Positions 21,052 through 31,908 of a stretch of DNA of 64,000 nt are shown here, piece by piece. Below the pieces are notes generated by a model. That model had not been told where the DNA came from. It made no database searches and worked only from the letters and a program-made list of their open reading frames with translations. Location: the NCBI RefSeq assembly GCF_016522075.1, contig NZ_JAEHFW010000002.1, positions 310,001 through 374,000 on the forward strand, in the 5' to 3' direction. Origin of the DNA: Mucilaginibacter segetis. Its GTDB lineage: Bacteria; Bacteroidota; Bacteroidia; Sphingobacteriales; Sphingobacteriaceae. Numbering within the stretch: position 1 is the stretch's first letter; every line of letters starts with the position of its first letter. Both the position numbers and the translations under genes were made by a program.

Positions 21052-21672
21052 CTATTGCTCCAGATCAAGTTCATCGGTGCTTATTCCGTCAAGTTCCTGC
21101 GGATTGTGGCTTACAATTAAAGCGGTAATATCTAATTCAGCAAACAAGGTTTTTAATTGCATAATAAGGCCCGACTTTGTTTTAATATCCAGCGCCGAAA
21201 AAGGTTCATCCATTAATAACAGCTTAGGTTTAATTGCCAGGGCACGCAATACTGACAGGCGCTGCTGCTGCCCGCCAGATAAATGCGCGGGTTTCTCTTC
21301 TTCAAAATTCTCCAGCATACCTATAGCCAGCAGACGGTTTATCCATTCCGCATCGGTAGTGGCGTATTCCAAATGCTGCTTAACCGTCATGTTGGGGAAC
21401 AAGGCATAATCCTGAAAAACAAAACCAATATGGCGCTGCTGTGGCGGCAGGTTGATTTTTTTAGCGTCATCAAACCAAATAATGCCATCAACTATGATCT
21501 TTCCGCTATCAGGTGTAGCCAATCCAGCTATCATTTTTAATAGTGTTGTCTTTCCCACACCCGAGGGGCCTGTAATCCGCAGGATAGCTCCTTCAGGAAT
21601 TTCCTTACTTATTTGCAGCGTATTTAAACCTTTATAAGCCTTTAGCTTTTTCTCAACAACTATTTCAATCAT
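21052..21672 (-). CDS. modC: Molybdate ABC transporter ATPase
   Basis: ATP-binding subunit of a molybdate/tungstate importer. Walker A GPSGVGKTTLL (~33-43), Q-loop in FVFQDYALF, signature LSGGQQQRLSVLRAL (~127-141), Walker B LLLMDEPFSALD (~148-159) and the switch His in IVSHNPQEL. Length 206: it stops after the ATPase domain and has no C-terminal molybdate-binding (MOP/TOBE) domain, unlike the ~350-residue E. coli protein; short versions are common in Bacteroidota. It overlaps modB by four bases. Confidence 0.88.
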   Translation of the reverse strand: MIEIVVEKKLKAYKGLNTLQISKEIPEGAILRITGPSGVGKTTLLKMIAGLATPDSGKIIVDGIIWFDDAKKINLPPQQRHIGFVFQDYALFPNMTVKQHLEYATTDAEWINRLLAIGMLENFEEEKPAHLSGGQQQRLSVLRALAIKPKLLLMDEPFSALDIKTKSGLIMQLKTLFAELDITALIVSHNPQELDGISTDELDLEQ

Positions 21673-22340
21673 TCTAAAGGACTTTTGGATTGATATTTAT
21701 TATACATAAAAACACTTATCACCATGATAAATGTAATAGCAAATAATACCAATGAATAATTATTAGCGGCTTTGTAATCCATTTGCTCTACCGAATCATA
21801 AACGGCGATAGAGGCCACACGGGTAACACCCGGAATATTTCCGCCAATCATCAGCACCACACCAAACTCGCCAAGTGTATGGGCAAAAGTAAGTACCGCA
21901 GCTGTTAGTAAAGATGGCTTTATATTGGGTAATAATATATGTACAAAGGTTTGCCACCGTGTTTTCCCTAACGTATACGAGGCCTGCGACAAGGATAACG
22001 GTAATTGCTGAAAAGCAGACTTAACCGGGCTAACCATAAAAGGCATACTATAAATAACTGATGCCAGCACCAGGCCCTGAAAAGAAAAAACGAATCGAAC
22101 ATCAAACGTTTGCTGTAACCATTTGCCTAAGCCATTTTGCGGACTAAAACCCAGCAACAGATAAAATCCTAATACTGATGGCGGAAGCACCAGAGGCATG
22201 GTAATAATAGCCTCTATTAATATTTTGAACCACGATCTTTTTTTTGACAGCCACCAGGCAAGCGGCAAGCCAACAAGCAACAGTATCAGTGTAGTGATAC
22301 CCGCAAGTTTTAATGTAAGCCATACTGGTGACAGATCCAT
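21669..22340 (-). CDS. modB: Molybdate ABC transporter permease
   Basis: Inner-membrane permease, 223 residues, about five to six helices. It has the ModB-type start (LSPVWLTLKLAGITTLILLL), PLVLPPSVLGFYLLLGF (~50-66), and the EAA loop SYTLGKTRWQTFVHILLPNI (~121-140) that docks on the ATPase; HTLGEFGVVLMIGGNIPG (~155-172) is a ModB hallmark. Start ATG at 22340, 11 bases after modA. The order modA-modB-modC on one strand is the classical operon. Confidence 0.9.
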   Translation of the reverse strand: MDLSPVWLTLKLAGITTLILLLVGLPLAWWLSKKRSWFKILIEAIITMPLVLPPSVLGFYLLLGFSPQNGLGKWLQQTFDVRFVFSFQGLVLASVIYSMPFMVSPVKSAFQQLPLSLSQASYTLGKTRWQTFVHILLPNIKPSLLTAAVLTFAHTLGEFGVVLMIGGNIPGVTRVASIAVYDSVEQMDYKAANNYSLVLFAITFIMVISVFMYNKYQSKSPLE

Positions 22341-22351
22341 TTGTATTCGTT

Positions 22352-23116
22352 TTATTGAACGTGATAGCCGTAAGCCGCAAATATCTTTTTAGCGGGTACA
22401 CTTAAAATGTACCGGTAAAATTTGCCGGCAGCTAAATTGTGTTCCGCATGTTTAAGCATTACCATCCCCTGCTTTATAGGCTGGTAACTCTCCGGCGCCA
22501 CCAGTTTATAGTACAGCCGGGTTTTATTAGCGGGCGCTTTAACCAGGGCCAAGGTGGTAAAACCTGCCTGTACGACACCTGTAGTTATATAAGTATTTAC
22601 CTGAGTTATGCTTTCACCAAACACTATTTTAGGACGCAGTTTATTGTATATCCCCAAACCGGTTAATGTTTGCTTTGCCGCTTTACCATAAGGTGCAATT
22701 ACCGGGTTACCAATGGCAATTTTGCTGATGCCACTGCCCGAGAGTAAGCCGCGTACATCATTAAAGTTTAAATTTTGAGTGCTGCAAATAATAAGCGTGC
22801 CAAACGCATAAACCACAGGTTTTTGTAAGGCAACTCCTTTTTTGAACAGCGTTTGAGGAAAATTAACATCAGCAGATAAAAAAACATCGTAAGGCGCACC
22901 GTTGCTGATCTGGGCGGTTAAATTGCCGGATGAGCCAGAAATAGCGTCAACGCTTATTCCTGTACGCTTCTTAAAATCCTTTTGCAGTTCCTTCATTACC
23001 GGTTGCAGGTTGGCTGCTATGGCAACTTTTAGATTTTGAGCGGCTCCGGGTAAATAAAAAAAGGGCACAAGTATTATTGTTATCCACAGTTTACAGTTAA
23101 TTTCTGCTCTTCTCAT
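22352..23116 (-). CDS. modA: Molybdate-binding periplasmic protein
   Basis: Solute-binding subunit of the molybdate importer. Signal peptide in the first ~27 residues (LWITIILVPFFYLPGAAQ). The mature part opens with LKVAIAANLQPVMKELQKDF, then ISGSSGNLTAQISNGAPYDV and FLSADVNFPQTL, all ModA hallmarks for oxyanion binding. The frame extends to 23161; ATGs at 23128 and 23116 are both possible and 23116 (254 residues) is chosen because it leads straight into the signal peptide. It transcribes away from the GH16 gene at 23246. It supplies molybdenum for the molybdopterin enzymes encoded 1-7 kb away. Confidence 0.9.
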   Translation of the reverse strand: MRRAEINCKLWITIILVPFFYLPGAAQNLKVAIAANLQPVMKELQKDFKKRTGISVDAISGSSGNLTAQISNGAPYDVFLSADVNFPQTLFKKGVALQKPVVYAFGTLIICSTQNLNFNDVRGLLSGSGISKIAIGNPVIAPYGKAAKQTLTGLGIYNKLRPKIVFGESITQVNTYITTGVVQAGFTTLALVKAPANKTRLYYKLVAPESYQPIKQGMVMLKHAEHNLAAGKFYRYILSVPAKKIFAAYGYHVQ

Positions 23117-23202
23117 TTTATCATACATCCTTGTTCTGCAAAATACGCATATTGCTAACAACCCGGCAAATGCTCGTAATTAATATCCCGATATAAATAC
23201 AT

Positions 23203-23210: not shown

Positions 23211-23245
23211 TTTTGCTTTTACCAATTATCAGCAAATTCATCTTT

Positions 23246-24100
23246 ATGAGAATTTATTACGCTTTAAGCGGTGCCGCTATTATTTTAAGTCTTGCAGCGT
23301 GTTCAGGAAGTAAAAATAATCCGGAACCCAAAACCCCAACTGTTGTGCCCAAGGTGCTTCCGGAGGATAAAGGCTGGACCTTTGAAACTACACCATACTT
23401 TTCGGATGACTTTGACTACACCGGAAAACCGGATAATTCCAAATGGACCTATGATGTTGGCGGCAGCGGCTGGGGCAATAATGAACTGGAATATTATACC
23501 GATGGCGCTAATGCGGACGTAGCTGACGGCAAACTAACCATCACTGCTAAAAAAGAAAATTTTGGTGGTAAAAATTATACCTCTACGCGTTTGGTATCTA
23601 AAGGCACAGGCAGTATGCTTTATGGCCGTGTGAAAGTAAAGGCAAAACTGCCTTCGGGCGTTGGCACCTGGCCGGCAATATGGATGCTACCCGATACTTA
23701 TGCATATGGCGACTGGCCAAAATCGGGGGAGATAGATATTATGGAAATGGTGGGTTACGATCCCAATAATATACATTTTACCGTGCACAACGCTTTGTAT
23801 AATGGCACCAATGGCAAGGGAAATAATATGATAATACCCACAGCAAGTACGGATTACCATATTTACCGTACCGACTGGACCCCATATGCCATCAGGGGGT
23901 ATTACGATGACACGCTGGTTTATACTTATATAAACAGCGGCGACGGTTCCCCGGCCTGGCCATATGATCAAAAATTCCACCTGTTATTGAACATTGCAGT
24001 GGGCGGTAACTGGGGCGGCGTGCAAGGTGTTAACGATGGCGCGTTTCCTACCACGATGGATGTGGATTATGTTCGTTTTTATAAAATGATAGATAAATAA
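23246..24100 (+). CDS. GH16 beta-glucanase (laminarinase-like) lipoprotein
   Basis: Predicted exported endo-beta-1,3-glucanase-type enzyme. A lipoprotein signal ends at Cys19 (LSLAAC-SGS). The GH16 jelly-roll fills ~50-284, with WPAIWMLP (~142-149) and the catalytic motif GEIDIMEM: nucleophile Glu162, acid/base Glu167. WGNNELEYYTDG (~76-87) is the typical substrate-side loop. The ATG at 23246 is chosen over a TTG at 23213 (284 residues). The GH5 gene starts 15 bases downstream, so both are co-transcribed. The second GH16 at 29.7 kb carries an extra trefoil domain, this one does not. Preference for beta-1,3- over mixed-linkage glucan is inferred. Confidence 0.9.
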   Translation: MRIYYALSGAAIILSLAACSGSKNNPEPKTPTVVPKVLPEDKGWTFETTPYFSDDFDYTGKPDNSKWTYDVGGSGWGNNELEYYTDGANADVADGKLTITAKKENFGGKNYTSTRLVSKGTGSMLYGRVKVKAKLPSGVGTWPAIWMLPDTYAYGDWPKSGEIDIMEMVGYDPNNIHFTVHNALYNGTNGKGNNMIIPTASTDYHIYRTDWTPYAIRGYYDDTLVYTYINSGDGSPAWPYDQKFHLLLNIAVGGNWGGVQGVNDGAFPTTMDVDYVRFYKMIDK

Positions 24101-24115
24101 TTTCCTTAAAATTTC

Positions 24116-25345
24116 ATGAAAAAACTAAGTATCCTTCTTTTAATTATTTGCACTGCCGTATTTGCTTCACAAGCACAAAAAAAGTTTATAACCGTCAAAG
24201 GGAAAGAAATAATAGGGCCCGACAATAAACCCTTTTTAATACGAGGAACCAATTTGGGCAACTGGCTGGTACCGGAAGGGTACATGTTCAAATTCAAAAG
24301 TGTTAATTCGCACAGGCTGATAAATGAGGCTATTTCAGAACTGATAGGTCCGGAAGAGGCTAACGTTTTCTGGCATAAATTCCAGGACAATTATATTACC
24401 GAGGCCGATATCCATTTTTTAAAAGAGTCGGGAATGAACTCTATCCGTATCCCTTTTAATTACCGCCTGTTCACTAACGAAAGCTACATGGGTGAAAATA
24501 ATCCTAACCGCGGTTTTGAATTACTTGACAGGGTAATAGGCTGGTGTAAAAAAGAGAATTTATATGTGCTTTTAGATATGCATTGCGCACCAGGTGGCCA
24601 AACCGGAGATAATATTGATGACGGTGTAGGCTATCCGTTTTTGTTCGAGAGTGCTGCCAGTCGTAAATTAACAGCCGATATATGGCGCCGTATTGCCGAT
24701 CATTATAAAAATGAAACCATTGTAATGGGTTATGATCTGCTGAATGAGCCTATCGCGCATTATTTTGATGTAAAAAAATTAAACCCTTACCTGGAACCTG
24801 TTTATAAACAAATTACAGCGGCTGTTCGGTCGGTTGATAAAAATCATATTGTTTTTATAGGCGGTGCGCAATGGGACAGCAACTTTAATGTATTCGGTGC
24901 TCCTTTCGATAGCAAAAGTGTTTACACTTTCCATAAATACTGGACGGAACCCGTGCAAAAAGTAATACAGGATTATGTTGACTTTCGTGATAAATATAAC
25001 GTACCTATTTATGTGGGTGAAACGGGAGAAAACACTGACGAGTGGGTGAAAGATTTCAGGATACTTTGCGAGAAAAACAACATCGGCTGGCATTACTGGC
25101 CGTATAAAAAACTGGATAATACGCGTGGAATAGTAACCTTTAAAGAGCCGGAGGGTTATGACTCGGTTATTGCCTATACCGAAAAACCACGTGCCAGTTT
25201 CGAGGAGATCCGCAAGGCTGCACCCGCCGACAGGGAAATGATAAAACGTGCTTTGGACGGATTTCTGGAAAATTGCAAGTTTGCCAACTGTACACCCAAT
25301 AAAGGGTATATCGAAGCCCTGGGGCTTAAAGTACCGGCTAAATAA
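24116..25345 (+). CDS. GH5-family glycosyl hydrolase (glucanase-like)
   Basis: Exported retaining glycoside hydrolase of family 5. Signal peptide 1-20 (FASQA-Q). The TIM barrel shows RGTNLGNWLVPEGYM (~43-57), RIPFNYRLF (~111-119), DMHCAPGGQ (~154-162), acid/base Glu211 in YDLLNEP and nucleophile Glu302 in VGETGE. The pattern RGTNLGNWLVPEG resembles exo-beta-1,3/1,6-glucanase-like members. A short C-terminal piece with two Cys (ENCKFANC) follows the barrel. 409 residues. It is co-transcribed with the GH16 gene and ends about 30 bases before a perfect 15-bp inverted repeat. Confidence 0.88.
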   Translation: MKKLSILLLIICTAVFASQAQKKFITVKGKEIIGPDNKPFLIRGTNLGNWLVPEGYMFKFKSVNSHRLINEAISELIGPEEANVFWHKFQDNYITEADIHFLKESGMNSIRIPFNYRLFTNESYMGENNPNRGFELLDRVIGWCKKENLYVLLDMHCAPGGQTGDNIDDGVGYPFLFESAASRKLTADIWRRIADHYKNETIVMGYDLLNEPIAHYFDVKKLNPYLEPVYKQITAAVRSVDKNHIVFIGGAQWDSNFNVFGAPFDSKSVYTFHKYWTEPVQKVIQDYVDFRDKYNVPIYVGETGENTDEWVKDFRILCEKNNIGWHYWPYKKLDNTRGIVTFKEPEGYDSVIAYTEKPRASFEEIRKAAPADREMIKRALDGFLENCKFANCTPNKGYIEALGLKVPAK

Positions 25346-25374
25346 ATGTATAAAATACCGTTAATAGGATGTAA

Positions 25375-25409
25375 TTTATAAATGCTTATCTTGCATAAGC
25401 ATTTATAAA
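25375..25409. repeat. Perfect 15-bp inverted repeat before the 7TM regulator gene
   Basis: TTTATAAATGCTTAT (25375-25389) and its exact reverse complement (25395-25409) flank a five-base spacer. It lies 30 bases after the GH5 stop and 53 bases before the 7TM-DISM start. There is no T-tract on the plus side, so it is either a hairpin that protects or ends the GH5 mRNA or a dimer operator. AT-rich, which lowers the weight a little. Confidence 0.75.
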
Positions 25410-25461: not shown

Positions 25462-27363
25462 ATGTATAAACTTTACTGCGGGTTGCTCTGCCTTGTTTTG
25501 TCTGCCTTTACATTAAGCAGTATAGCACAAACAGTGGTACCAGTGGCCGATACCGCCAAACAACATGTTTTCAGGTACGGTGAGATAGAGTATTTTAAAG
25601 AAGCGGGTAACACGCTGAATATTAAAACTGTAAGCAGCGCAGAATTTAATAGTAAATTCAAAAAAAATAACGAACCTACGCCGCAGCTTCGGGATGTAAA
25701 TGCTACCTATTGGTATCGTATCAGGTTAGATCAAAATACCCTTACCAAAAACAACTGGATTCTTGAGTTTTTTGATCAGACCATTGACAGCATAACCGTA
25801 TACTCGCCTACCAAAAAAAATAATTACACCACCACCCTTCTGGGTAGTAACCGTCCTTTTTCCGAAAGGTTATACAATCACAAAAACTTTAGCCTTAACC
25901 TTGATAACGACATTGACGGAATTAATACCTATTATTTTCGCATCAGGTCACATCAATCTGCCAATATCATTATTGTACTGCGTTCGGTTAGCTGGTTCAT
26001 CAGCTACGCGCTCGACGAATACTTTTGCTTTGGCATATTTTACGGTATGATCCTGGTTTTCGGCCTGTACAATTTCATGATGTTTATTGCTATGCGGCAG
26101 CGGCAGTATTTGTATTACATCGCCTATAACCTTAGCATCGGCCTTTATGAAATGTGTACCGATGGTATTGCTTATCAATACCTTTGGCAAATGGCACCTC
26201 ACTGGAACCATTATGCCTATGGCATAGCCCTGTTTTTCGCCAGCATTTTCGCTATGCTTTTCGCCCAAAGCCTGCTCAATTTAAAGGAAAATGCCCCCCG
26301 GTTTAACAGGCTGATAACGGGTTTGATAATTATACGTACCCTGTTCTTTTTACTGTGCCTTACTGTAAATAAAAATTGGTTTAGTTACAAGATCATTGAA
26401 TTTATACCATTATCAGTGGCATTTGTAAGCGGATGCTATGTTTTATACAAGGGGTATCGTCCGGCGAGATTTTTTGTAATTGGCTATAGCTTTTTATTTA
26501 TCGGTTTTATTATTAAAACGCTGATAGCGCTTAATATTTGGTGGCTGCCGGTTACCGCACTTAATTTTTACAGCTTAAGCTTTTGTTTTATCATGGAAAT
26601 GCTGTTCATCACCTTTGCCATTGGCGACAGGGTGCGATTGCTGAAACGCGACAAAGATCAAACGCAGCAACGCATGATCAAACAGTTACAGCAAAACGAG
26701 GAGTTGAAGGATCTGCTGAACAAAAACCTGGAAGAGCAGGTTGCCGAACGCACTAAAGAGCTGGTGGAAAAAAACTCGCTCATTGAGTCGCAAAATGACG
26801 AATTGTTATCGGTAAATACGTTATTACAACAACAGGCTGAAGAGATATCCCGCATGAATGTATTGCTGGAGAAAGACAACCTATCCTTGCATAATGATAT
26901 TGAGAAAGTAACATACGACAGGGTAATGTCTGCCGAGGTGGATTTTGAGGAGTTCAGTAAAATATACCCGGATAACGAAACCTGCTTTAAATTCCTGTCC
27001 GATCTGAAATGGGAAAAAGGTTATGCCTGTAAGAAATGCGGGAACACTAATTACAGCAGCGGCCATTTGCCTTACAGCCGCCGTTGTTCTAAATGCGGAT
27101 ACGAAGAGTCAGTTATTGCCTATACTATTTTACATGGCACGCGAATACCTATTAATAAAGCTTTCTACATGATATTTTTAATGTACTCCACTAAAGGGAA
27201 AATATCATCGCACAAACTGTCAGAAATACTATCTATAAGGCAAAGTACCTGCTGGTCGTACACTTCACGTATAAAAAAAGCGATGGAAAGCCGTAAAAAA
27301 GAGATCAAAAACGCAGGCAGTAAAGGTTGGAGTAAATTGGTTATTGAGAATAACACCGACTAA
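25462..27363 (+). CDS. 7TM-DISM membrane sensor fused to IS1595-type transposase zinc ribbon and helix-turn-helix
   Basis: A 633-residue membrane protein with sensor-like and DNA-binding parts. Signal peptide 1-22. Periplasmic 7TMR-DISMED2-like beta-sandwich ~30-170. Seven hydrophobic helices ~180-390 (7TMR-DISM_7TM). A long coiled coil ~395-480 follows, as in histidine kinases or adenylate cyclases of this class, but no kinase follows. Instead ~495-615 matches the N-terminal part of IS1595/ISXO2 transposases: zinc ribbon Cys523-x2-Cys526 and Cys542-x2-Cys545, then the LHGTRIPINKAFYMIFLM segment and a helix-turn-helix-like part ending SYTSRIKKAMES. The DDE catalytic domain is absent. It may be a membrane-tethered transcription regulator of the flanking glycoside hydrolase genes (inference). 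No frameshift in the junction. Confidence 0.85.
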   Translation: MYKLYCGLLCLVLSAFTLSSIAQTVVPVADTAKQHVFRYGEIEYFKEAGNTLNIKTVSSAEFNSKFKKNNEPTPQLRDVNATYWYRIRLDQNTLTKNNWILEFFDQTIDSITVYSPTKKNNYTTTLLGSNRPFSERLYNHKNFSLNLDNDIDGINTYYFRIRSHQSANIIIVLRSVSWFISYALDEYFCFGIFYGMILVFGLYNFMMFIAMRQRQYLYYIAYNLSIGLYEMCTDGIAYQYLWQMAPHWNHYAYGIALFFASIFAMLFAQSLLNLKENAPRFNRLITGLIIIRTLFFLLCLTVNKNWFSYKIIEFIPLSVAFVSGCYVLYKGYRPARFFVIGYSFLFIGFIIKTLIALNIWWLPVTALNFYSLSFCFIMEMLFITFAIGDRVRLLKRDKDQTQQRMIKQLQQNEELKDLLNKNLEEQVAERTKELVEKNSLIESQNDELLSVNTLLQQQAEEISRMNVLLEKDNLSLHNDIEKVTYDRVMSAEVDFEEFSKIYPDNETCFKFLSDLKWEKGYACKKCGNTNYSSGHLPYSRRCSKCGYEESVIAYTILHGTRIPINKAFYMIFLMYSTKGKISSHKLSEILSIRQSTCWSYTSRIKKAMESRKKEIKNAGSKGWSKLVIENNTD

Positions 27364-27458: not shown

Positions 27459-27563
27459 CTGTGAATTAAGCGTATCACAACTATTTTTTAAATTTCTTAA
27501 AATCCGTTTTAACGTCCCTTAAAGCGGTTTGCTGTATTTTTTGCCTGTGAAGCAAGCGTATCA
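27459..27563 (+). repeat. Two 19-bp direct repeats upstream of the GH30 promoter
   Basis: CTGTGAATTAAGCGTATCA (27459-27477) and CTGTGAAGCAAGCGTATCA (27545-27563) are identical at 17 of 19 positions and 86 bases apart (about eight helical turns). The second ends 46 bases before the -33 box. The layout is that of an activator binding twice upstream of a promoter. Confidence 0.6.
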
Positions 27564-27609
27564 AATAAATTATAATCAATTAATTATCAATTGTTTATGA
27601 AACTTTTTA

Positions 27610-27642
27610 TTTGATTGTAACGTAAAAATTACTTTAAATTTG
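27610..27642 (+). promoter_or_regulatory. Promoter of the GH30-GH16 operon
   Basis: TTTG (27610-27613), 21 bases, TAAATTTG (27635-27642): a full match to the Bacteroidota -33/-7 consensus. Predicted leader of about 160 bases before the GH30 ATG. Confidence 0.6.
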
Positions 27643-27809: not shown

Positions 27810-29681
27810 ATGAAAATCAGTTACAAATTAAAATTGCTGGCGGCTATTATTGCAATACCCGCATTGCTGATGTACGCCTGCAAAAAGGATGTCGGCGGAC
27901 AAACTGCTATAAATGCTGCTGGCGGCACCCCAGCACGCGCCGCCAACGAAGTGGTAAATGCCTGGTTAACCACCTCTAATAAATCAAGTTTGCTGGCACA
28001 AAGCAGCTTTAATTTTGCCGCGGATGCAGGAACCAACTCCACTACAATTACCGTAGATGAAAACACAACTTACCAGGGTATTGATGGTTTTGGTTTTACA
28101 CTTACCGGGGGCAGCGCCGGATTGCTTAACGGATTAGGAGGCAATCAAACCAATGTACTGAATGAGCTGTTCGGAACCGGAAACGGCCAAATCGGTATCA
28201 GTTACCTGCGCATAAGTATAGGAGCATCCGATCTGAGTTCATCAGATTTTACATACAACCAAACCGCCGGAGATGTTAATATGAATAATTTTAGCCTGGC
28301 GCCTGAGATGCAGGACATGATCCCTATTCTGAAAAAGATTATTGCCATTAATCCTACCATAAAAATATTAGCCACCCCATGGACGGCTCCTACATGGATG
28401 AAAGTAAATACTACCGGGAATAAAGGGTATACAGGCGGAAGTCTTAACACTGCCTATTACGATGCTTATGCCCGGTATATTGTAAAATATATACAAGCCA
28501 TGCAGGCGCAAGGCATAACCATTGATGCAATAACTCCTCAAAACGAACCTCTTAATCCATACAACAACCCAAGTATGGTGATGCAGGCTAATGAGCAGGT
28601 AACGTTTATTAATAACAACTTAGGGCCGCAGCTGCATAACGCGGGTCTGAACACCAAAATAATAGCGTATGATCATAATGCCGATGTACCAAGTTACGCT
28701 ACAACGGTTTTAGCAGGTGCCGGCCAATATGTTGACGGTTCAGCATTTCACTTATACGCAGGGGATATAAGCGCGTTAGCAGGTGTACATAACGCTTATC
28801 CTAACAAGAACGTTTACTTTACAGAGCAATGGGTTGGCGCGCCAAGTAATTTTGGCGGCGATCTTTCGTGGCATGTAAACAACCTGATTATAGGGGCAAC
28901 CCGCAACTGGAGCCGTAACGTGCTGGAATGGAACCTTGCATCAGATCCGAACAATTACCCGCATACTAACGGAGGCTGCAGCAACTGTTTAGGAGGTATA
29001 ACCGTAAGTGGCACCTCAATAACCCGTAATGTAGGTTATTACATTATTGCCCACGCCTCTAAATTTGTAAGACCGGGCGCTGTACGTATAGCCTCTAATG
29101 TGGCAGGCAATATCCAAAATGTGGCCTTTAAGAACAGTGATGGCTCTAAAGTAGTTATCGCGCTGAATACCGGCAGCAGTTCAGTAAGCTTTAAGCTAAA
29201 ATGGGGTGCCGAATCCTTTACCTATAGCCTGGCAGCGGGCGCAGTGGTAACCTTTAAATGGTCGGGTACGCAATCAAGCGGTAGCGGCGGTAGTTCCGGT
29301 GCTCCAATCGGGCAAACTATTACATTAAAAGGTTTCAACAACCAATATGTATCATCGGAGAATGGCACGCAACCCATGAATTGCAACCGCGCTACGGCAC
29401 AGGGCTGGGAACAGTTCACTGTAGTTGATGCCGGCGGCGGCAAAATAGCACTGCAAAGTCAGGGAAAGTATGTATCATCAGAAAACGGAACACAAGCCAT
29501 TACCTGCAATCGCACCAGTATTGGCGACTGGGAAAAATTCGACTGGGTGCCTACGTCTGACGGAAAGGTAACCTTCAGAGGAAACAACGGGAAATTCATC
29601 TCGAGCGAGAATGGAACGCAACCCATGACCTGTACACGGGCGTCCGCTTCCGGCTGGGAAGCATTTGGCGTAAACCAATGA
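27810..29681 (+). CDS. GH30 glycosidase (beta-1,6-glucanase-like) lipoprotein with C-terminal fascin-like trefoil
   Basis: Predicted surface or exported enzyme, probably endo-beta-1,6-glucanase. The lipoprotein signal ends at Cys24 (LLMYAC-KKD); the Lys-Lys-Asp after Cys resembles the surface-export signal of Bacteroidota lipoproteins. GH30 catalytic part ~70-485: [26 protein letters not shown], acid/base Glu246 in TPQNEP, nucleophile Glu339 in YFTEQWVG. A Gly/Ser linker (~489-497) leads to a fascin-type beta-trefoil of three ENGTQ repeats (~500-623). That trefoil is almost identical to the one on the next gene. 623 residues. First gene of a two-gene operon with the trefoil GH16; together they suit beta-1,3/1,6-glucan such as laminarin or fungal wall. 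Confidence 0.9.
29307..29678 (+). repeat. Fascin-like trefoil segment, copy 1 (GH30)
   Basis: 124 codons encoding the C-terminal trefoil. Same length as copy 2 at 30585-30956; the two protein segments differ at only 9 of 124 positions by direct comparison, and the DNA is close to identical over long stretches. Points to recent duplication or gene conversion. Confidence 0.9.
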
Positions 29682-29723
29682 TCACTATAAAACCAATCAA
29701 ATACTAACTATAAATCAATTATT

Positions 29724-30959
29724 ATGAAAAAGCAATTCTTTAACTTTCTGAAAAGCGCCGGAATAGTGCTGGTGCTTGTCTCCTTGGCGCTCTCTTGTAA
29801 AAAGGATGTGGGGCAATCGGCTGCGGAACAGGTGAAGGTTTCATCTGCCACAGAAAACAGCACCACGCCAAGAGCGGCCACGCTGGTTTGGTCTGATGAG
29901 TTTAATGGCAGCAGCGTTGATGGTTCCAAATGGAACATTGATAATGGCAACCCAAATGTGAATAACGAGAAAGAGTATTATTCATCAGGCAATGTGGCCG
30001 TAACAGGTGGAAATTTGGTTATTACCGCAAAAAACCAGAGCATGGGCGGGCAGCCTTACACTTCGGGTAAATTAACCACTTCGGGTAAATATTCGGTAAA
30101 ATATGGCCGTATCGAGGCCCGTATAAAACTTCCGGCCTTCCAGGGAAGCTGGCCCGCTTTCTGGATGTTGGGCAATAATATCGGATCAGTAGGCTGGCCA
30201 CAGTGCGGTGAGATAGATATTATGGAACAAACTAACACCAGCAATACTATTTTGGGTACAATGCACTGGAATGCTAACGGGCATGTTTATTATGGCAACA
30301 GTACTACCGTGGGCAGTGTACAGGATTACCATGTGTACGCCGTGGAGTGGGATGATAGCAGTATACGTTGGTATGTAGACGGTAACCTTTTCAACACCGG
30401 CAATATTGCTAATAATATTAATAATACCGAGGAATTTCATTTACCGTTCTTCCTGATACTGAACCTTGCAGTTGGTGGCGATCTGCCGGGCAATACCATT
30501 AACAACGGCGCGTTACCTGCAAGCATGTATGTGGACTATGTGAGGGTCTACTCATTATCGGGCGGTTCAACTTCCAATCCGCCTATCGGCCAAACCGTGA
30601 CCTTAAAAGGTTTTAACGGAAAGTATGTATCATCAGAGAATGGCACGCAAGCTATGACCTGTACACGGGCTACCGCGCAGGGTTGGGAACAGTTCACTGT
30701 AGTTGATGCCGGCGGTGGCAAAATAGCACTGCAAAGCCAGGGCAAATATGTATCATCAGAAAACGGAACACAGGCTATTACCTGTAACCGAACCAGCATT
30801 GGCGACTGGGAAAAATTCGACTGGGTGCCTACGTCTGACGGGAAGGTAACCTTCAGAGGAAATAATGGGAAATTCATCTCGAGCGAGAACGGCACACAGG
30901 CTATGACCTGTACACGGGCGACCGCATCAGGGTGGGAAGCATTTGGTATTAACCAATAA
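29724..30959 (+). CDS. GH16 beta-glucanase lipoprotein with C-terminal fascin-like trefoil
   Basis: Second GH16 enzyme of the island. The lipoprotein signal ends at Cys25 ([10 protein letters not shown]). GH16 domain ~52-280: WSDEFNG (56-62), WPAFWMLG (143-150) and GEIDIMEQ with nucleophile Glu163 and acid/base Glu168. After the linker SGGSTSNPP comes the fascin-type beta-trefoil (~288-411), three repeats each with a GKYVSSENG-like motif; it probably holds insoluble glucan. 411 residues. Separated from GH30 by 42 bases and followed by a strong terminator. Confidence 0.92.
30585..30956 (+). repeat. Fascin-like trefoil segment, copy 2 (GH16)
   Basis: Partner of 29307-29678: same 372-base length, reading frame and end point relative to the stop codon. 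A more diverged third copy encodes the N-terminal trefoil of the GH26 protein at 6.0-6.5 kb on the minus strand. Confidence 0.9.
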
Positions 30960-31017: not shown

Positions 31018-31908
31018 ATGAAAAGACCAATTATTATTTGCCTTGGTATTTTATTAAATGCCGGACTGTTATTTGCCCAGGCAATTCAAAAAAAAGTGCA
31101 GTTAAACCTTTCTACAGGCTATCAGCAACAGGATTTGAAATGGTCAATAGCTGGAAACCAAGCGGGGCAAAATCCTAATATCTACTCTGAACTGCAATGG
31201 AAAAAAGTGGGCGGGCAATTAATAGCAGGCGAACTGCAATGGAACTTTTATAAAAAACTATCCTTAACAGCTGGCTTTTCGCATGTTTATATCGGTTCGG
31301 GTACGGTATCTGATAATGATTACAATGGCGACAACCGCACCAACCGCGTATACAGTGAATTGTTTAATGCGGATAAAGGTTTTACCCGGTCATGGTCGGC
31401 AGGAGTGGGATATATGATATTTAATACGCAAAATTTTAGTTTAATCCCTTATGCCGGATATGGTACCAATAAACAATCTTTATTTTTACTTGATCGCTCG
31501 GGAGATTTTCCGGATCTGAACAGCACTTATAATACAGATTGGAAAGGGCCTTTCCTGAAAGCTACCGCTACAGCCAAACTTGCTGCTCGCTTAAAGCTGA
31601 CCGCTGATATTACCTACAACCAGGCCGATTATAAATCGAAAGCCGACTGGAATCTTATACAAACATTTCAGCACCCGGTGAGCTATCGGCACACCGCTAA
31701 AGGTTATGGTATTACTGCCAACGCGGGCTTAGGATATGCTATTTCCCGCAATATAGGCATGCACTTATCCGGAGGTTATTTTAGCTGGCAAACAGGCAAG
31801 GGGGTAGATGAGTTATTCCTGGCATCCGGCGGATCTGAAAAAACGCAGTTAAATGGCGTGGATCACAGCGGTTACAGGGTTGCCCTTGGAGTAGAACTGG
31901 GCTACTAA
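31018..31908 (+). CDS. Outer-membrane beta-barrel protein, omptin/Protochlamydia-OMP-like
   Basis: Exported protein of 296 residues. Signal peptide ~1-20 (GLLFAQ). The mature chain alternates aromatic and polar residues with repeated turns and ends in Tyr (VALGVELGY), typical of outer-membrane barrels. Segments VQLNLSTGYQQQDLKWSI and YSELQWKKVGG near the N-terminus recall the Protochlamydia outer-membrane protein/omptin-like families; the omptin catalytic residues could not be placed, so protease activity is not claimed. It starts 11 bases after the GH16 terminator, so it probably has its own promoter or depends on read-through. Confidence 0.6.
   Translation: MKRPIIICLGILLNAGLLFAQAIQKKVQLNLSTGYQQQDLKWSIAGNQAGQNPNIYSELQWKKVGGQLIAGELQWNFYKKLSLTAGFSHVYIGSGTVSDNDYNGDNRTNRVYSELFNADKGFTRSWSAGVGYMIFNTQNFSLIPYAGYGTNKQSLFLLDRSGDFPDLNSTYNTDWKGPFLKATATAKLAARLKLTADITYNQADYKSKADWNLIQTFQHPVSYRHTAKGYGITANAGLGYAISRNIGMHLSGGYFSWQTGKGVDELFLASGGSEKTQLNGVDHSGYRVALGVELGY

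Follow-up and report, generated by a model that had tools for sequence, protein, structure and literature searches.

The window, a 64,000-nucleotide stretch of the Mucilaginibacter segetis genome, carries an open reading frame that appears to join a membrane receptor to the DNA-binding half of an IS1595-type transposase. Is such a fusion a local accident, or is it a regulator, and in the latter case which genes would it control and through which DNA sites? The features that bear on this question are collected in Table 1. Open reading frames and gene labels were called mechanically.

Table 1 Features of the fused regulator gene and its surroundings (window coordinates)
Feature	Position	Strand	Basis
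GH16, upstream of regulator	23213..24100	+	profile
GH5, upstream of regulator	24116..25345	+	profile
Probable regulator promoter (TTAATAGG ... TATCTTG)	25361..25393	+	ten upstream regions compared by eye; overlaps hairpin 25375-25409
CDS, fused membrane regulator, 633 aa	25462..27363	+	ORF, profile matches, homologue alignment
Probable signal peptide, residues 1-23 (...SSIAQ)	25462..25530	+	sequence reading; invariant Q23
7TMR-DISMED2 periplasmic sensor domain, residues 41-173, RetS periplasmic fold	25582..25980	+	Pfam; Foldseek 3jyb
7TMR-DISM_7TM, seven membrane helices, residues 186-390	26017..26631	+	Pfam; AlphaFold2
Signalling helix / coiled coil, ~residues 391-490, extends membrane helix 7	26632..26931	+	alignment; AlphaFold2
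IS1595-type zinc ribbon, residues 503-547, Cys523/526/542/545	26968..27102	+	Pfam; homologue alignment
IS1595-type helix-turn-helix, residues 560-616, predicted DNA-binding helices	27139..27309	+	NCBIfam; AlphaFold2
Predicted operator site 1, AAGCGTATCA	27468..27477	+	conserved motif, no binding data
Predicted operator site 2, AAGCGTATCA, 86 bp from site 1	27554..27563	+	conserved motif, no binding data
Fixed-position element ATCAATTGTTTA (family form ATCA[AG]TTATTTA), 32 bp past site 2 start	27586..27597	+	promoter comparison
Bacteroidota-type -7 promoter box TAAATTTG, 81 bp past site 2 start	27635..27642	+	promoter comparison
GH30 glucanase, first gene of predicted target operon	27810..29681	+	profile
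GH16, predicted target operon	29724..30959	+	profile
Outer-membrane beta-barrel (Pom, PF17251), end of predicted target operon	31018..31908	+	profile; conserved neighbour

Domain composition and predicted structure

The gene is read as one intact, stop-free frame. The signal peptide likely ends at Q23, since this residue is invariant in the homologues. The receptor part matched two Pfam profiles well over their cut-offs, 7TMR-DISMED2 at residues 41-173 (2e-28, 99.4 bits, cut-off 22) and 7TMR-DISM_7TM at residues 186-390 (4e-44, 151.5 bits, cut-off 29). The zinc ribbon profile Zn_ribbon_IS1595 (PF12760; residues 503-547) scored 23.3 bits with the whole protein, below its cut-off of 25.4, and 26.6 bits, above the cut-off, when the C-terminal part was scored alone. 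This profile and the NCBIfam profile transpos_IS1595 (NF033547) were both matched by all of 22 diverse C-termini of the family, so the zinc-ribbon match is not the chance result of one sequence. The transpos_IS1595 match aligns residues 560-616 with profile positions 2-59 of 215 and thus covers only the region that precedes the catalytic domain. Pfam gave no match to the DDE catalytic domain (PF12762) in the 633-residue protein, and neither Pfam nor NCBIfam revealed a histidine kinase, a receiver, an AraC domain or any other output domain in it. The original prediction, made without database searches, was of a 7TM-DISM sensor fused through a coiled coil to an IS1595-type zinc ribbon and helix-turn-helix (HTH), with no DDE domain and no stop or frameshift at the junction. 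The profile matches at both ends, the single reading frame and the AlphaFold2 models confirm it.

The C-terminal 130 residues were modelled by AlphaFold2, with a family alignment, at a mean pLDDT of 90, as two short helices, the four-cysteine ribbon and then a three-helix HTH with a long third helix. The full-length model (pLDDT 72) consists of a beta-rich periplasmic domain and seven long helices, and helix 7 is one continuous helix (366-444) that enters the coiled coil. A single-sequence search of solved structures gave no match for the periplasmic domain; the fold search with Foldseek matched it to the jelly-roll sensor domain of RetS (3jyb; E 3.4e-5, TMt 0.73). For the DNA-binding part, Foldseek found no significant match among solved structures, and a second structure aligner returned homeodomains and Lrp-type HTH proteins at Z 5-7, which is middling by the notes of that aligner. 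Searching solved structures by sequence with the C-terminal profile gave only ribosomal-type zinc ribbons and similar entries, at E values of ~0.1 or worse. From its domains and the model, the product is predicted to be a membrane protein with a periplasmic sensor and a cytoplasmic DNA-binding end.

Occurrence of the fusion in Bacteroidota

The M. segetis genome contains a single copy of the fused gene. Full-length relatives were found at 58 loci in Mucilaginibacter, Pedobacter, Olivibacter, Solitalea and Cyclobacteriaceae. A genus-wide search gave a match in 129 of 150 genomes, the weak matches covering the receptor part only. In a sample of the phylum, matches at E < 1e-60 were obtained in 11 of 392 genomes, including two further families (codes f8 and f9) that retain the fusion at 32-41% identity. 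Across 19 full-length homologues the most conserved region of the protein is the C-terminal part, in which Cys523/526/542/545 are invariant, as are P563-I564-N565-K566 and the QxTCW helix. Judged from these comparisons, the fusion is no local accident: it defines an old family that has been conserved in Sphingobacteriaceae and in further families of Bacteroidia. Two outcomes had been named that would refute the prediction, namely the lack of a profile match in the C-terminal part and the restriction of the fusion to one genome as a recent insertion. Neither came about, as the profiles match and full-length orthologues exist in several families. One record labelled Beijerinckiaceae (L048) has a typical Bacteroidota locus of regulator, SusC, SusD and GH30, and is most likely a mislabelled or misbinned contig.

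Origin of the DNA-binding tail

The N-terminal zinc ribbon and HTH region of IS1595 transposases, about 120 residues long, is homologous to the tail of the fused protein. A search with the tail profile yielded two kinds of proteins, the fused family (~620-700 aa) and ordinary transposases (~300-340 aa). A tree built from 120 alignment columns places the fused proteins in a single clade with two stand-alone proteins (support 97/89). This clade is sister to the transposases L183, L184 and L133, and the larger enclosing group also holds other transposases (support 100/99). The nearest transposases match the DDE domain profile, and both L183, a near relative, and the more distant L194 are transposons flanked by perfect 8-bp target duplications. 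The most economical interpretation of this short alignment is that the domain was captured from a transposase once. Mobility would be marked by several copies, terminal repeats and an 8-bp target duplication; by its single genome copy and its orthologous neighbourhoods across the genus the fused gene does not look mobile, its own terminal repeats lying outside this comparison.

The tail is also found on another sensor. In genome G603, which belongs to another genus of the family, a 1101-aa protein (L179:9112-12414, minus strand) combines Reg_prop repeats, Y_Y_Y and a membrane helix with the same coiled coil and tail. This protein, with a 7TM version encoded ~5 kb away, is the sole case of its architecture seen among ~600 genomes searched with the tail profile. 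Since the same coiled coil and tail follow such a different sensor, the tail behaves as a swappable output module. The stand-alone zinc ribbon-HTH proteins (L180:3084-3569, minus strand, 162 aa; L187:1197-1649, minus strand, 151 aa) contain no receptor or DDE domain and are possibly soluble regulators of the same origin.

Genome G310 has ten divergent IS1595-like gene copies (L181, L182 and L131). In the copies that were read, the first catalytic Asp region is altered, with CEL in place of DET, and the match to the DDE profile starts only at position 25. They possibly represent another domesticated or dead family.

Linkage to polysaccharide utilization loci

As first noted from the sequence, the regulator gene lies between a GH16-GH5 and a GH30-GH16 gene pair, and the profiles confirm these assignments. 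The typical gene order around Mucilaginibacter orthologues is [GH5] REG GH30 GH16 outer-membrane protein, where REG is the regulator gene, and that in Pedobacter, Olivibacter and Cyclobacteriaceae is REG SusC SusD GH30. At other loci REG is followed by GH2-type or GH3 genes, GH5, SusC, SusD, or a divergent SusC-SusD pair. A gene of a polysaccharide utilization locus (PUL; SusC/SusD or GH30/16/5/3) was present within two genes of 90 of 96 regulators versus 10 of 105 random genes, and, in a more distant set, SusC was near the regulator in 30 of 41 cases versus 8 of 107. The same home-made profiles served for both sets, and the random genes were a small set from related genomes. The loci are related, so that neither these counts nor the motif counts below are independent. 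The fused protein had been suggested to switch beta-glucan use, with recurrence of the fusion beside GH genes as a check. The fusion does recur beside PUL and GH genes in many genera, and the suggested link is thereby strengthened.

Two further observations concern the genes around the regulator. ABC-type transporter genes for a molybdate-type solute-binding protein, a permease and an ATPase (21052-23161, minus strand) adjoin the glucan locus and are kept in ~30 loci. GH30 and GH16 of the window (27810-30959) and an unlinked GH18 (L320:7202-8611) have a common C-terminal DUF7910/fascin-like repeat domain, which is possibly a common carbohydrate-binding module of the regulon.

A conserved paired motif in PUL promoters

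The intergenic region behind the regulator gene of the window contains a direct-repeat pair of AAGCGTATCA, which precedes GH30-GH16. In Mucilaginibacter the same pair stands before GH30; in Pedobacter, Olivibacter, Solitalea and Cyclobacteriaceae it stands before SusC. Its orientation follows the target gene. In a de novo count of 8-mers over 131 PUL promoters, which form 74 similarity clusters, with 2,520 letter permutations as the control, AAGCGTAT was the most widely shared 8-mer (33 of 74 clusters). The word GCGTATCA occurred in 24 of 74 clusters and its reverse complement in none, and the letter-permutation mean was 0.33. When at most three mismatches were allowed over both sites together, the AAGCGTATCA pair was present in 65 of the 131 promoters; 200 letter permutations gave 0.055 on average and never more than 3. 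Of the best-scoring pairs, 56 have a spacing of 86-94 bp, and nearly all pairs fall within 76-94 bp. In 37 of the 65 promoters a -7 box, TAnnTTTG, starts 80 or 81 bp past the start of site 2, versus 0.12% at other positions in these promoters, and the ATCA[AG]T element was found 32 bp past the start of a site in 38 cases.

The AAGCGTATCA pair is absent from about half of the 131 promoters. All SusC promoters of the f8 (G198-like) and f9 (G314-like) clades lack it and show no convincing direct repeats. The third helix of the HTH differs in the f8 and f9 tails and, as far as sequences can tell, this change together with the missing motif fits co-evolution. SusC/GH3 promoters without AAGCGTATCA share the words CAATCGATTTCGGA in the f8 clade and GCAAACGTTTGC in the f9 clade (L200, L201, L204, L205-L207); these words may serve as operators where the recognition helix of the tail is different.

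The GH16-GH5 promoter of the window itself has no clear site. The original prediction had proposed two regions for binding by the C-terminal part. One, 27459-27563, contains the conserved sites; the other, the hairpin at 25375-25409, is not kept in the compared orthologues and overlaps a conserved promoter-like stretch, and was rejected as an operator. Autoregulation through AAGCGTATCA was also rejected, because nearly all regulator upstream regions lack the site. Nor does the operator appear to be a relic of transposon ends, as the terminal repeats of the nearest transposons do not contain GCGTATCA.

The exact pair was also searched for in 251 genomes of the family, with ~50 matches versus 3 for a reversed control pattern. 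About half of the 30 matches with loci were inside ORFs, as expected by chance. Downstream of the intergenic pairs lie genes for SusC, GH30 or alginate lyase, and a GH5 gene follows in one short-ORF case. Five further matches (three coding, one intergenic and one unclear) are taken as chance; the intergenic one is located before an outer-membrane protein gene in a genome without the fused regulator. Full pairs that are not linked to a regulator gene were found in G127, where a GH30-GH16-outer-membrane operon follows, and in G057 and G143, where alginate lyase genes follow; they argue for a trans-acting factor. Unlinked single sites were found before a GH30 operon in G023 and before a GH18 gene in G026. 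Candidate alginate lyase genes with an unlinked full pair are at L317:5832 and L318:5981. The GH18 gene at L320:7202-8611 (minus strand) has one site, and the word GTGAGTTAAGCGTATCA recurs in several genomes. In the M. segetis genome, a pattern search alone returned one exact pair, that of the window, and 18 single decamers versus 6 in the control. One single site, GTGATTAAAGCGTATCA (G000:C1:786244-786260; L315:6253), is located before a SusC-SusD-FG-GAP operon, behind a DUF6377 protein, and may be due to chance or mark a second target.

Proposed mode of action and alternative explanations

Our main reading, to which we assign a probability of about 0.8, is that the fused protein is a SusR-like, kinase-free, one-protein membrane transcription factor of PULs, which uses a domesticated transposase DNA-binding domain and activates through paired AAGCGTATCA; no binding or expression data exist. 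Computation supplies the domain make-up, the ancestry of the tail, the conservation, the PUL linkage and the conserved paired motif with its fixed promoter geometry. The periplasmic DISMED2 domain, a RetS-like jelly roll, would bind a glucan oligosaccharide; this is inferred from the fold and the neighbouring genes, and a beta-glucan as the ligand is likewise an inference. From there the signal would cross the membrane along the seven helices, with helix 7 leading without a break into the coiled coil, again by inference. The zinc ribbon and HTH, paired by the coiled coil, would bind the two AAGCGTATCA direct repeats ~86-94 bp apart, perhaps in dimeric form with the intervening DNA looped out. 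DNA binding by the protein, its binding to AAGCGTATCA and its dimerisation are all inferred, and the link between protein and AAGCGTATCA is a statistical one without bench data. The position of the -7 box ~80 bp downstream of site 2 suggests that the bound tail may help RNA polymerase there; activation rather than repression is inferred. The targets would be the GH30-GH16-outer-membrane-protein operon in the window and SusC-SusD-GH30 and similar PULs in the relatives.

The fused protein might regulate the PUL without binding the AAGCGTATCA pair itself. Another factor conserved alongside it, such as a global carbon regulator, could occupy the pair, and the zinc ribbon-HTH would then recognise something else or act through protein contacts. 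Some regulator-adjoining PULs do lack the motif and there are no biochemical data to decide the matter, but the motif is the top shared 8-mer exactly beside the regulator, in different genera and with different genes downstream. Moreover, nearly all intergenic pairs of the family-wide scan come from regulator-bearing genomes, the one exception looking like chance, and the clades with a changed recognition helix are without the motif. We consider a different factor quite unlikely. One could also regard the C-terminal domain as an inactive remnant of a transposase insertion, with signalling by another route, and its sequence ancestry in IS1595 transposases speaks for this. The idea is scarcely credible: no other part of the protein is conserved so well across several families, its zinc ligands and HTH core do not vary, and the tail has been recombined onto another sensor type.

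Instead of activating directly, the protein might also repress, or it might serve as an adaptor dependent on a partner kinase or sigma factor. The sequence does not reveal whether regulation is positive or negative, and a two-component-like pair (genes of 225 and 434 aa, without a profile name) is located upstream in some Pedobacter loci. However, the protein itself has no kinase or receiver, the long distance from the sites down to the -7 box is in keeping with activation, and SusR, whose predicted operators are laid out in a similar way, activates its operons (PMC3878776). This role is not ruled out but appears rather unlikely, and direct activation through paired AAGCGTATCA remains the preferred reading.

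Comparison with known systems

The fused protein shares its receptor module with RetS and other 7TMR-DISM receptors, and its periplasmic domain matches that of RetS (3jyb). RetS-type receptors have kinase or cyclase-type outputs and are not known to carry a DNA-binding domain. Work on the ChiS family in Proteobacteria (PMC8092284) already lists proteins in which 7TMR-DISM is fused directly to a DNA-binding domain, and a 7TM receptor with a DNA-binding end is therefore not new in itself. The DNA-binding domain of these proteobacterial proteins is described as a cryptic HTH variant (PMC8092284); unlike it, by description, the tail here is a zinc ribbon and HTH of transposase origin. Our literature search, subscription papers excepted, found no paper pairing 7TMR-DISM with polysaccharide utilization, or the name of the zinc ribbon with SusC regulators. 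IS1595/ISXO2 transposases differ from the fused protein, which lacks the DDE domain, has its DNA-binding region behind a receptor, and is encoded in single copy in fixed neighbourhoods.

SusR is a membrane protein with a periplasmic sensor and a cytoplasmic DNA-binding domain that activates its operons, and this DNA-binding domain is described as unlike other known factors (PMC3878776). Predicted direct repeats are 67 or 77 bp apart for SusR-like regulators and ~21 bp apart for HTCS (PMC3878776). Like the SusR-like regulators of Bacteroides, the regulator described here is predicted to be a single membrane protein with a periplasmic sensor and a cytoplasmic DNA-binding end; genes of its family adjoin susC/susD, and long-spaced direct repeats are its predicted operators. 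Its layout is thus SusR-like, although both ends of the protein differ: the sensor combines DISMED2 with 7TM, and an IS1595 zinc ribbon with HTH takes the place of the SusR DNA-binding domain. The likeness is one of layout, and no homology is claimed. As in HTCS, a periplasmic glycan sensor and a DNA-binding output would be joined in one polypeptide, and the 1101-aa relative has the Reg_prop/Y_Y_Y sensor type of HTCS. Unlike HTCS, the protein has no histidine kinase, receiver or AraC domain, and its repeats are ~86-94 bp apart rather than ~21 bp.

This would be a bacterial case of a transposase DNA-binding domain used as the output of a membrane receptor, with a likely operator and targets at hand, and it is directly testable. 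Many glucan clusters of soil Bacteroidota, whose regulators are named only at the domain level, could gain a regulator and an operator. It is probable, in our judgement, that the coiled coil and IS1595 zinc ribbon-HTH constitute a domesticated-transposase output module, probably captured once and shuffled among 7TM-DISM, Reg_prop/Y_Y_Y and stand-alone forms, and that the proteins carrying it form a further class of PUL regulators, with its own paired operator, beside SusR, HTCS and ECF sigma.
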